Positions 23,387 to 39,700 of a stretch of DNA of 40,901 nt are shown piece after piece; positions within the stretch are counted from its first letter, which is position 1, and each line of letters opens with the position of its first letter. The stretch lies in the NCBI RefSeq assembly GCF_017873815.1, contig NZ_JAGGKQ010000026.1, forward strand, positions 1 to 40,901, given 5' to 3'. The notes below the pieces were generated by a model that was not told the DNA's origin, made no database searches, and worked only from the letters and a program-made list of their open reading frames with translations. The position numbers and the translations under genes are program-made. Source of the DNA: Halorubrum alkaliphilum. GTDB taxonomy: Archaea > Halobacteriota > Halobacteria > Halobacteriales > Haloferacaceae.

Positions 23387-24376
23387 ATGTCATCCTGGAC
23401 ACGCACGCGTGTTGCGCTGGTGGTCGCCTGTGTGCTGCTGGCCGCCGCCGTCGGCCTGGCCGCACCGGCCGCCGCCGACGCTGCCCCGTCCGACGAGGAC
23501 CCGATCGAATCCGTCACCCAGTCTGTCCCCGACACCGCCGACCCCGGTGACACCGTCACCGTCGAACTGACGATCGCCATCGACGGCGACATCGAGCGCC
23601 TCGACGTCGTCACGACCTTCGAGCCCGCGGTCGCCGACGTCACCGTGATCGACGACGACGGCGCGACCGTCTCCGAGGTCACCGACGCCAACGACGAACT
23701 CGTCGCCTCGTACGGCGACGTCGACGAGGTGACCCTGGAGTACGAGGTCGCGATCGCCGAGGACGCCGCCGAGGACGACACCGTCGAGCTCGTCGCCGAC
23801 GTCGAGGCCGACGAGGCGTTCGAGCGCGAGGCCACCGACACGATCACCGTCGTCGACGAGACGATCGAGAACGTCACCCGAGACGTGCCCGCGGGCGCGA
23901 CCGCCGGCGACACCGTCGAAGTGACGACCACCGCCGAGCTCGACGAGCCGACGACCAACGTCTCGATCACCGACCAGTTCGAGACCCCGGTCGCTGACCT
24001 GACGATCGTCGACGACGATAACGCGACCGTCTCCGAAGCCACCGACGCCAACGACGAACTGGCCGCCTCGTGGGGCGACGTCCGGAACGTCACGCTCGTC
24101 TACGAACTCACCCTCCCCGAGGACGACGTCGAGGCGGGCGACAGCTACGCGATCACCACCACGGTGGCCGCCGACGCGGAGACCACGACGGAGAGCCACG
24201 AGATCGTCATCTCCGACGTCCCCGGCGCGGTCGAGTACGCCGACCCCGACACCGGCGAAGTCGACGCGAACGGGATGCTCGACGCCGCCTCCGACTTCCG
24301 CGAACGCGACGACGTCGACGCCAACACCCTGCTCGACGCCGCCGCCGGGTTCCGCTCGGACGACCCCGTGTTCTAA
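23387..24376 (+). CDS. Exported protein: two beta-sandwich domains plus dockerin-like module
   Basis: A 329-residue protein with a Sec signal (VALVVACVLLAAAVGLAAPA, cleavage near AADA). Two copies of a ~100-residue domain follow (about 40-145 and 150-270). Each starts with PGDTVTVELT or AGDTVEVTTT, continues with a strand like VVTTFEPAVADVTVIDDD, carries the signature VTDANDELVASYGDVDEVTL and ends in TVELVADVE-type strands. The C-terminus (about 283-329) is dockerin-like: DPDTGEVDANGMLDAASDFR, then DANTLLDAAAGFRSDD. The same domain occurs in the genes at 34911 and 36725. Start chosen at ATG 23387: TTAAGTA lies ~27 bases upstream, giving a leaderless message. The architecture resembles a small scaffold or adaptor; cohesin-like function is a hypothesis. 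Confidence 0.8.
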   Translation: MSSWTRTRVALVVACVLLAAAVGLAAPAAADAAPSDEDPIESVTQSVPDTADPGDTVTVELTIAIDGDIERLDVVTTFEPAVADVTVIDDDGATVSEVTDANDELVASYGDVDEVTLEYEVAIAEDAAEDDTVELVADVEADEAFEREATDTITVVDETIENVTRDVPAGATAGDTVEVTTTAELDEPTTNVSITDQFETPVADLTIVDDDNATVSEATDANDELAASWGDVRNVTLVYELTLPEDDVEAGDSYAITTTVAADAETTTESHEIVISDVPGAVEYADPDTGEVDANGMLDAASDFRERDDVDANTLLDAAAGFRSDDPVF

Positions 24377-24435
24377 CCGCCACCGGACCCGCTCGCCCCC
24401 ACTCCGCACCCGTCCTCCCGTTTCCGGTCCTCCAT

Positions 24436-24515
24436 CCGTCCACGCCGGGTTCCTCCCGTCCACGCCGGGTTCCTCCCGTCCACACCGGGTTCCTCCCGTC
24501 CACACCGGGTTCTCC
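24436..24515. repeat. Four 20-base tandem repeats
   Basis: CCGTCCACGCCGGGTTCCTC is repeated four times (24436, 24456, 24476, 24496); the last two carry CACACC for CACGCC. The array fills the gap between two exported-protein genes. It has no hairpin-forming arms of note and is not CRISPR, because there are no spacers. Confidence 0.8.
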
Positions 24516-36380: not shown

Positions 36381-36724
36381 TCGACTGTGAATTGTCTTCT
36401 AATAATATAATCATTTCCTTGCTATCAGCGACTTGCGTGTCCACGCGATCGAGAACAAGATCGGGTCTGTTGCGCGCTCGCCGTTCCCCGGGTGTCCAGT
36501 CTACGAGTTCCCCGCCACCGTTCCGAAGAGCGTATCTCTCGACGCCCGAACGAATCGGTCGCTTGCGTCGGTCTTCCGGACCTGCCGGGGCTCGACGTAG
36601 CACGGTGTATCGACCATATCACACAAAGTATTTAACAAGCCTTACTCAATAAACGAGTGCGTCATACCCGTTGGCATCGGCGAGTAACACCGTGTGAAAG
36701 TCCGTGCTACTGGAAACTACAACA
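36381..36724. promoter_or_regulatory. Divergent region and S-layer gene promoter
   Basis: No supported gene. TATTTAA at 36629-36635 is a plausible TATA box; transcription would start near 36660 and leave a leader of ~65 bases before the ATG at 36725, consistent with the leadered mRNAs known for haloarchaeal S-layer genes. A minus-strand frame at 36364-36603 lacks protein-like character. A TAATAATATAATC stretch (about 36400-36412) could be the promoter of the gene on the minus strand. Confidence 0.5.
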
Positions 36725-39700
36725 ATGACAGACGACACATCATATCGAACCAAGGGACGTGCAGTGTTCCTTGCTGCGATCATGGTCGTATCCATGGTTG
36801 CTGCGGGCGCGGCCTTCGCGGGCAGCGCGGCCGCCGCAGTGGACACGACCGATCGTACCATCGACGAAGTGGAACTTGAGCCCGGTGAAACAACCGAGGT
36901 CACAGTAAGCGTATCGGCAACTGAAGAAAGCAACGACCTTCGCGTGATCGAGAACTTCGATCCCGCGTTCGCTGACGTCACGGTTATCGACGACAGCGAC
37001 GCGACGATCTCCGAAGTCACCGACGCCAACGACGAGCTCGCCGCCTCGTGGGGTGGCGTTGAGGACGTGACGCTCACCTACGAGGTCGAGGTCTCCGAGG
37101 ACGCCGAGGAAGGTGACGAGTTCACCCTCTCCGGCACCGCGGAAGACCGCGACAACGATGAGGGTAACGTCATCGACATCGAGGGTGACACCACCATCAC
37201 CGTCGCCGAAGCTGACAACGGCAACGGCAACGGCAACGGCAACGGCGCCGTCGACGCCGACGACTACGACCGCATGCTCCAGGAAGGCGACACTGTCTTC
37301 CAGGGTCAGCTCGTTCAGGTCAGCGCCGACCAGATCGACGCTGGTGGTCCGTTCGGTGACGACGAAGTCGAGCTCCGCCGCGTCGACGACGGCGAGGTCG
37401 CTGGACTCGTCTCCACCCCGAGCGTGATCGAGGAGGACGGTGACCAGTACTACATCCTCGACACCGAGAACCGTGACGCGGACCGCTACGTGCTGACGAC
37501 CGAGTCGCGCAACACCGATGTCTCCGGTCTCCTCACCTTCGAGGTCGCCGTGCAGGACCTCAGCGTCGAGTTCGACGAGGACGAGGTCGGTGACGTCGAA
37601 GGCGACTCCGAGGTCGAACTGGACATCGAATCCGACATCCGTAACAGCTACATCGTCGAGGTGACCGCCGACGGTCTCGACGAGGAGGAACTCGAGGACG
37701 TCTTCACGCAGGACCCCGAGTCCACGTGGAACACCGAGCGCACTGACGGTCTCGACCGCAGCGAGCTGCACGCTGACCGCGGCTCGGCCGGTGACGGACA
37801 GTACTTCCTCGACGAGGACGATGAGTCGATCATCCTCCTCAACGCCGAGGGTGACGAGCACGTCCTGAACTTCACCGACATCGACCAGGACGAGTACGAG
37901 TTCGAGTTCGAGGTCTACGACTCCACCGCGGAGGACTCCGACTCGATCGAAGTCGTCGAGGGTGACGAGGGTCAAGTGAACCTCGTTGACGCGACGCTCG
38001 ACGAGGAGGTCGGCTCCGTCGCTGAGATCGAACTGGAAACCGTTGGCGGCGCTGACGAGGCCTCGATCGCCATCGGCGACGAGGACGACATCGGCTACCA
38101 GCTCAACGCCACCGTCGACTTCGACGGTGAGGACAGCGTCACGCTGCTGTTCAACACGTACGCTGCCGGCTCCGACGAGTTCGACGGACCCGTCCTCGTC
38201 GAGGACGGCGACAACGACGCCGAAGTCATGGAGTACGAGCAGAACACTGACATCGAGGGCATCCTCGACTCCGGCGACTACGAGATCAACGTCCGCGCCG
38301 GTGCGGACGACGTGAGCGACTTCGAGGACGTCTTCGACGACGCCGACGACCTCGGTTCGCTGTTCCTCGACGACCGCTCCACCGACGCGTGGAACCTCTG
38401 GACCGCCCCCGGCGGTGCTGACGAGGTCGACGACCTCGAGGACGGCGACGACGTGGTCGACGCGGTCGAGGACGGCATCCTCACCGAGACCGACCAGGTC
38501 GCACACGACGACTACCTCGTCCACGAACTCGACGCGACCGGCGTGGCAGGTATCCTCGCCGCAACCGGTGAGGACGACGCTGTGGACCAGTTCGTTTCCG
38601 TCTTCAGCGATGACTTCAGCCACCAGGAGAGCGGTGTGAACTCCTTCGACCTGCGCGTTCGCGAGACTCGCGACAGCGCCGGCCCGAACGTTGAGCGCAC
38701 CGTTCAGACCGTTAACATCGACACGGTCATCGTCGACGAGGACGCCAACAGCGTCTACGTCGTTCAGGAGATGAGCGACGTTATGGGCGCTACTGGCGAA
38801 CTCGCCGGTGAGGAGTTCGACGAGACCGAGGACTACGAGTTCGAGGTCCGCTTCCGCAACAACGACTACCGCCTGCTCGACTTCGACCCCGCTGAGGACG
38901 AAGACGAGGAGCTCTCGGACGTCCGCGAGCAGCTCGACACTGAGTACGACCTGCTCGAGCGTACGTTCGACTTCGACCAGGACCCGTACAACGCGACGAA
39001 CACTGACGACGCGACCTTCAGCGGCGAGACGACGGTCGCGCCCGGCAGTGAGTTCGACGCGCGTGTCCGGTCGACCGGCGACACCAGCCCGCGGTTCAAC
39101 ATCAACGAGGAGTTCTCCGTTGACGAGGACCGCGTCTTCGAGACCGAAGAGTTCGACCTGAGCGAGGCGAGCGTGGGCGACACGTACACGCTCTCGCTCC
39201 GCAACACCGGCGCAGACGAGCGTCCGGAAGTTGACGGCGAGATCGTCGAATCCGACCTCGAACCCGCGTTCTTCGAGGTCTCGGATCTCGACCCGATGGA
39301 CGTGACCGTTGACCAGGGCGACCTGATCAGCGTCACCGCGACCATCACGAACACCGGCGACGAGGACGGCGACCAGACGGTCGAGTTCCGCGTCGGCGGT
39401 GACGCAGTTGCCGACGAGGACGTCGGCCTCGATGCTGGAGACGACACGGAAGTCGAGTTCTCCGACATCGAAACTGACGGCCTCGACGGCGAGTACGAGC
39501 ACGGCGTCTTCACCGACGACGACAGCCAGACGGCAACGCTGACTGTCAACGTCGATGACGACGACGCCGACGACGACGACGACGCAGCTGACGACGACGA
39601 CGCAGCTGATGACGACGACGCAGCTGACGACGACGACGCAGCTGACGACGACGACGCCGTCGACGACGACGCGGAGGACGACACGCCCGGCTTCGGCGCT

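Follow-up and report, generated by a model that had tools for sequence, protein, structure and literature searches.

A beta-sandwich domain in a Halorubrum S-layer glycoprotein is a candidate receptor for dockerin-like tags on secreted proteins

Genes and modules of the locus

The DNA analysed here, referred to as the window, is a 41 kb contig (NZ_JAGGKQ010000026.1, 40,901 nucleotides) of the 3.1-Mb genome of Halorubrum alkaliphilum. It encodes a surface layer (S-layer)-type glycoprotein and two other proteins that share a beta-sandwich domain of about 118-124 residues, designated D, together with a dockerin-like module, designated the tag, that occurs in six proteins. An initial annotation of the DNA placed D twice in the protein with an ATG at 23387, once in the protein at 34911 and once at the N-terminus of the S-layer-type protein. 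All four copies were located, and D is longer than the roughly 100 residues given there. The D copies and the proteins that carry them are as follows.

23504-23860, + strand: D copy 1, in protein 23375-24376 (leave-one-out profile match)
23864-24217, + strand: D copy 2, in protein 23375-24376 (leave-one-out profile match)
35070-35438, - strand: D copy 3, in the Tat-type protein 34911-36380; about 57% identity to the S-layer D
36839-37210, + strand: D copy 4, in the S-layer-type protein 36704-39763, immediately C-terminal to the signal peptide and followed by the linker GNGNGNGNG
36704-39763, + strand: S-layer-type glycoprotein with signal peptide, D, core (DUF7827 and BGTF surface domain), Asp (D)-rich spacer and PGF-CTERM anchor
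23375-24376, + strand: D-D-tag protein (ATG at 23387), with tag at 24233-24373 (E 5e-23) and a layout like that of a small adaptor
34911-36380, - strand: twin-arginine translocation (Tat)-signal D-tag protein, with D and then immediately the C-terminal tag at 34914-35051 (E 2.3e-24)

Copies 1-3 are 37-56% identical to the S-layer D, and 25 columns are invariant over the four copies. When each copy was compared with a profile built from the other three it scored 96-121 bits, while shuffled sequences reached at most 10 bits (n=2000). No fifth copy was found in the 3.1-Mb genome, where a single match on another contig (E=0.17) is noise. D matched no Pfam or NCBIfam family above cut-off, and viral contigs scanned with the S-layer D gave no match.

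The tag is a module of about 45 residues with the consensus xYAxDDGxVDxxGLLDAAxDFRxxxIDxxLLDVAAAFRTGEPV. In the window 5/6 tags lie at the extreme C-terminus and one, in protein 28318-32937, lies right behind the Tat signal. Besides the two proteins with D, four proteins carry it.

18155-23152, + strand: right-handed beta-helix (NosD-like) protein of 1665 residues with an S-layer-type signal peptide; tag 23012-23149
24587-27490, + strand: subtilase (Peptidase_S8) with a CARDB-like domain; tag 27344-27487
28318-32937, - strand: adhesin-like Tat-signal protein of 1539 residues; N-terminal tag 32611-32748
33138-34853, + strand: HExxH metallopeptidase-like protein with a PKD domain; tag 34713-34850

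The S-layer-type protein scored above cut-off (in brackets) for halo_sig_pep at 42 bits (24.6), the BGTF domain at 73 (40) and PGF-CTERM at 46 (24.5). Because the S-layer equivalog NF041335 was matched only in part (167 bits, below the cut-off of 1100), this protein is a divergent member of the S-layer glycoproteins. Three D-bearing relatives, from genomes G249, G158 and G183, pass the S-layer model TIGR04216 (cut-off 400) with 1016, 760 and 682 bits, respectively. Since positions 1-4 of TIGR04216 align in these three at residues 182-198, behind the signal peptide and D, the relatives settle the point that D is an insertion between the signal peptide and the S-layer core. The same alignment bears out the initial proposal that the core normally begins after the signal peptide and that D is an added module. 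The layout signal peptide-D-core was found in at least ten S-layer-type proteins (G000, G240, G388, G349, G241, G183, G161, G149, G249 and G158), a lower bound among 393 genomes in which weak D matches were partly examined.

Like other haloarchaeal S-layer glycoproteins (csg/HVO_2072; TIGR04216, NF041335), the window protein has a signal peptide, an immunoglobulin-like (Ig-like) core, an acidic spacer and PGF-CTERM; unlike csg/HVO_2072, it has the extra D and linker between signal peptide and core. Some haloarchaeal S-layer proteins are described with additional N- or C-terminal Ig-like domains, with no function given (PMC8640222). Since the dome of the Haloferax csg lattice consists of the N-terminal core domains D1-D2 and its base of D5-D6, an N-terminal D should, by analogy, project outward.

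Co-occurrence, linkage and anchoring of D and tag

In the Halorubrum genome, every one of the four D copies and six strong tag matches falls within this one contig. One weak tag match lies elsewhere, on contig C15 (E 0.01; 3e-8 with a larger profile). Of 51-52 congeneric genomes, only two have D, the same two have the tag, and in both the modules are neighbours. A search with a single sequence missed most relatives (4/59 genomes), and profiles were needed. A broad survey was carried out with profiles on 393 genomes of the order, using E<=1e-16 for strict D and E<=1e-8 for a strong tag. D was found in 18 genomes and the tag in 27; both were found in 16, compared with 1.24 expected (odds ratio 265, p=2e-19). 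With the profile-donor genomes left out the odds ratio is 510 (p=3e-11), and at the genus level the tag is present in 11 of 13 D genera (p=1.4e-7). D and tag also lie close together: 15 of the 16 genomes have the two on one contig, no more than 5.2 kb apart, where random placement would give 0.7. As a control, the canonical Pfam cohesin was found in 143/393 genomes and shows hardly any association with the tag (odds ratio 2.3-3.2).

Two strict-D genomes, G149 and G331, lack the tag. The genes beside the D-bearing S-layer gene of G149 (locus L099 1-7311) encode a divergent terminal repeat, FQDVLDVIGAYN, and about 6-9 kb away there are Pfam dockerin matches, which suggests further tag subtypes that the profile missed. 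In G331 D sits in a membrane-transporter-like protein. Conversely, 11 tag genomes lack strict D, and in five of these (G036, G043, G055, G061 and G249) the tag locus contains a weaker D.

The two modules lie mostly on different proteins: the loci read contain 22 proteins with D alone, 46 with the tag alone and 8 with both. A C-terminal membrane anchor is present in 17/22 D-only proteins (14 of them PGF-CTERM) and in 0/54 tagged proteins (p=7e-13), a contrast that is partly built in, as a C-terminal tag geometrically excludes a C-terminal anchor; the five proteins with an N-terminal tag likewise have no anchor. The tag is always terminal, being C-terminal in 49/54 proteins and right behind the signal peptide in 5/54, and an N-terminal hydrophobic or Tat stretch was found in 38/54.

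Proteins contain up to 5 D, and anchored proteins with several copies are encoded near tagged partners. In Haloferax gibbonsii, H. prahovense and H. massiliensis a protein with 4-5 D and PGF-CTERM adjoins a tagged multicopper oxidase. On a plasmid of Natronosalvus amylolyticus (L175 2107-5005), a protein with 2 D, CARDB and PGF-CTERM adjoins a tagged cyanophycinase. The tag of this cyanophycinase is partial, and the adjoining protein is publicly annotated as 'CARDB domain-containing'. In the congener Halorubrum saccharovorum (L100 11310-16084) a tagged multicopper oxidase is encoded first, next a D-D-cohesin-dockerin protein and last a cohesin protein with PGF-CTERM; the Pfam cohesin match of the second protein lies outside both of its D. 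Judged from these domain orders, L100 looks like a two-tier docking chain that would bridge the new and the canonical systems, with D in the place that the first-tier cohesin has in cellulosomes. In the window, as in G240 and G388, a tagged subtilase is encoded beside the D-bearing S-layer gene.

Covariation of D and tag subtypes bears on specificity. The S-layer cores of the congeners G240 and G161 are 82% identical, whereas their D are 31% identical. Closer to D of G240 are D of G349 (54% identity) and of G241 (56%), two members of other families with core identities of 28-34%. The YL tag subtype is common to G240, G349 and G241, and the tag subtype of G161 is different. Over ten S-layer loci a Mantel test, based on the S-layer D only and on tag averages, gave r=0.60 (p=0.002) for D against tag and r=-0.10 for core against tag; the former value rests mainly on the YL loci and falls to r=0.16 when two of these loci, or all three, are left out. 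A looser test with all D-like copies of 18 loci was not significant (r=0.07, p=0.31). The pattern is the one expected from an exchange of matched receptor and tag cassettes, and taken alone it is also compatible with joint transfer without binding.

At loci L149-L156, L159 and L160 conserved RND-like membrane proteins of about 1200 residues end in a weak D-like domain, and some have a weak tag-like C-terminus after it (L155). The open reading frames of about 1200 residues with weak D, found in many genomes, were considered as S-layer proteins and rejected, as they are membrane-transporter-like and carry a distant Ig-like domain.

Fold and family membership of D and tag

The initial annotation suggested that D may be a cohesin-like receptor and asked for a structure prediction and a structural search against cohesins. 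The D model is an all-beta sandwich with a predicted local distance difference test (pLDDT) score of 85 and a predicted template modelling score of 0.76. Cohesins, including one of Archaeoglobus fulgidus, are among its best Foldseek matches (5lxv 1.4e-5, 5nrm 4.7e-5, 2jh2 8.3e-5 and 2xdh 3.5e-4). VIA aligned the model with a cohesin at Z 10.8 (root-mean-square deviation 3.0, 118 residues aligned), and domains of pilins, integrins and adhesins reached Z 10-12; many Ig-like, pilin, integrin and CLIPPER folds fit D as well as or better than cohesins. The modelled fold is thus compatible with a cohesin and not diagnostic of one; it permits a receptor role and does not prove it. By sequence, PF00963 gave no match at E<=1 in the three D-bearing window proteins and is absent among the best 25 of the 37 weakly matching families for 23 D sequences. 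The best PDB profile match of D to a cohesin has E=0.6. The description as cohesin-like holds for the fold, as compatibility, and for the role suggested by position, but not for membership in the sequence family.

The tag was modelled with AlphaFold2 as two helices, at residues 11-22 and 28-40 (pLDDT 96.8). The best of 350,542 PDB chains in Foldseek was a type II dockerin, with no significance (E=1.1), and VIA found no dockerin above Z 2.8 for a module that is too small to judge. The top PDB sequence matches of the tag profile are EF-hand proteins, with loop 1 EF-hand-like (best E 0.009). No Pfam family scored above cut-off for the tag; PF00404 matched 0/27 tags at E<=1 and gave no match in the window genome at E<=1e-3. 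Inspection of the tag alignments did not reveal two 12-residue calcium loops with D/N at positions 1, 3, 5, 9 and 12; loop 1 is shortened and partly acidic, and the second position has no such loop.

The arrangement nevertheless resembles the cohesin-dockerin systems of cellulosomes, A. fulgidus and anaerobic methanotrophic archaea (ANME) in many respects. Two-helix tags are terminal on unanchored secreted enzymes, putative beta-sandwich receptors occur singly or in multiple on anchored proteins, putative adaptors carry both modules, the genes are clustered and the subtypes appear paired. ANME cohesin/dockerin proteins have up to five cohesins (PMC9012536). It differs in that the window D and tags have no Pfam cohesin and dockerin matches, respectively, that the canonical calcium ligands of 12-residue dockerin loops are missing from the tag, that the S-layer glycoprotein itself contains the putative receptor, and that the cargo consists of proteases, oxidases, cyanophycinase and others and not of the cellulase set of cellulosomes. 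Most likely, the system works like cohesin-dockerin while neither D nor tag belongs by sequence to those Pfam families. The only discussions of haloarchaeal dockerins found in the literature searched concern type I dockerins in polysaccharide hydrolases, among them those of Natronoglomus mannanivorans, and interpret them as substrate-binding, with no receptor named (PMC10963439, PMC13260240). These are also C-terminal modules on secreted haloarchaeal enzymes, but they are canonical Pfam dockerins. No paper linking haloarchaea with a cohesin domain was found in a search of openly accessible literature.

A docking model and its alternatives

The initial annotation raised the possibility that D is the receptor for the tags. 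Because the co-occurrence of D and tag is exclusive, the genes are linked, the anchors are on the D proteins and D covaries with the tag independently of the core, genomics strongly supports this assignment. We consider it probable that D is the socket, the tag is the plug that binds it and the S-layer is the scaffold. In this Halorubrum the S-layer glycoprotein would carry the socket as a built-in module ahead of the core, projecting outward on its flexible linker. The unanchored secreted subtilase, metallopeptidase, beta-helix protein and large Tat-exported protein would be retained by insertion of their tags into D. The D-D-tag protein 23375 and the D-tag protein 34911 may serve as adaptors, adding docking sites or branching them. 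Elsewhere among the haloarchaea, this socket would reside in membrane-anchored proteins with several D, acting as small scaffoldins. The S-layer shell of some haloarchaea is thus probably a docking board for enzymes. We also lean, with less assurance, towards a wider proposal, namely that this plug-socket system is distinct in sequence from cohesin-dockerin, that one D per S-layer subunit makes the cell surface a periodic docking array, and that D/tag cassettes are swapped independently of the core. An S-layer receptor, if true, would explain both how haloarchaea retain secreted enzymes and what their dockerin-like tags bind. The S-layer would then be a functional scaffold, more than a coat, and would offer a salt-stable, genetically encoded display of proteins in a crystalline array.

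Several observations weigh against a receptor role. The initial annotation held that tagged proteins common in genomes without D would speak against it. The 27 strong-tag genomes comprise 16 with strict D, five with a weaker linked D and six (G250, G333, G339, G362, G369 and G375) with no D at E<=1e-8. Weak D-like domains occur in membrane proteins of about 1200 residues in many haloarchaea without such a locus. The cassettes move horizontally, and therefore the loci are not independent. To these are added the geometric part of the anchor contrast, the dependence of the covariation on the YL loci with its loss in the looser test, and the many non-cohesin folds that fit D.

In a different explanation, D serves only as an Ig-like structural spacer, or accompanies the tag in the manner of an X-module, and both modules share a mobile surface cassette without binding each other. 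D stands directly before the tag in 8 proteins, such as 34911 and 23375, the cassette is patchy (20/293 genomes) and plasmid-borne in Natronosalvus, and dyads of weak D-like and tag-like modules end RND-like proteins. A spacer or companion does not account for the 22 D-only and 46 tag-only proteins, or for the exchange of D together with the tag subtype on an S-layer core conserved at 82%, and we regard this explanation as unlikely. The other possibility in the initial annotation was homotypic assembly, whereby D of an accessory protein would pair with the S-layer D and insert the protein into the lattice. D copies within a locus are indeed alike, with 57% identity between 34911 and the S-layer protein and a resemblance between the S-layer D and the neighbour D in G249. 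However, homotypic assembly is disfavoured because 46/54 tagged proteins have no D; it leaves the tags unexplained, and at the G240, G349 and G161 loci D is present in one protein only. We consider it very improbable.

Two further explanations concern the tag. Were it bound by the canonical Pfam-type cohesins of haloarchaea, D would be unrelated to docking. A PF00963 protein scoring above cut-off is indeed encoded in the window genome, at C8:25342 on a different contig, and cohesin is weakly enriched in tag genomes. But this gene is unlinked to the tags, PF00963 is unmatched in 12/27 strong-tag genomes, cohesin occurs in the absence of a strong tag in 128 genomes, and the association is about 100-fold weaker than that of D. 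Canonical cohesin was rejected as the receptor on account of this weak association (odds ratio 2.3-3.2), and there is little chance that it fills that role. Slighter still is the chance that a dedicated enzyme recognises the tag as a signal for sorting or processing, as in PGF-CTERM/archaeosortase, with the D proteins merely co-expressed. Tags are terminal, short and attached to diverse cargo, as such a signal would be, but the tag is predicted to be a folded two-helix module (pLDDT 97), is N-terminal in 5/54 proteins and accompanies D, for which a processing role is unexpected.

In five genomes a large protein that has an S-layer signal peptide and bears the tag, or a divergent repeat, at a terminus is encoded directly upstream of the D-bearing S-layer gene.

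L093 7998-14552: large upstream S-layer-signal protein
L095 2107-7753: large upstream S-layer-signal protein
L098 5482-10683: large upstream S-layer-signal protein
L099 4717-10074: large upstream S-layer-signal protein
L111 4633-11217: large upstream S-layer-signal protein

This position suggests that the large tagged protein is a co-expressed second component of the surface layer. Two of the tagged window proteins have additional features. Protein 33138-34853 contains the motif HEYVHTQQ...E, read from its sequence, which suggests a zinc metallopeptidase; its Peptidase_M1 match is weak. Protein 28318-32937 has InlB-type, CARDB and carboxypeptidase-regulatory-like repeats, and its last 300 or so residues, which are unlike the rest, could be an effector-like tip.

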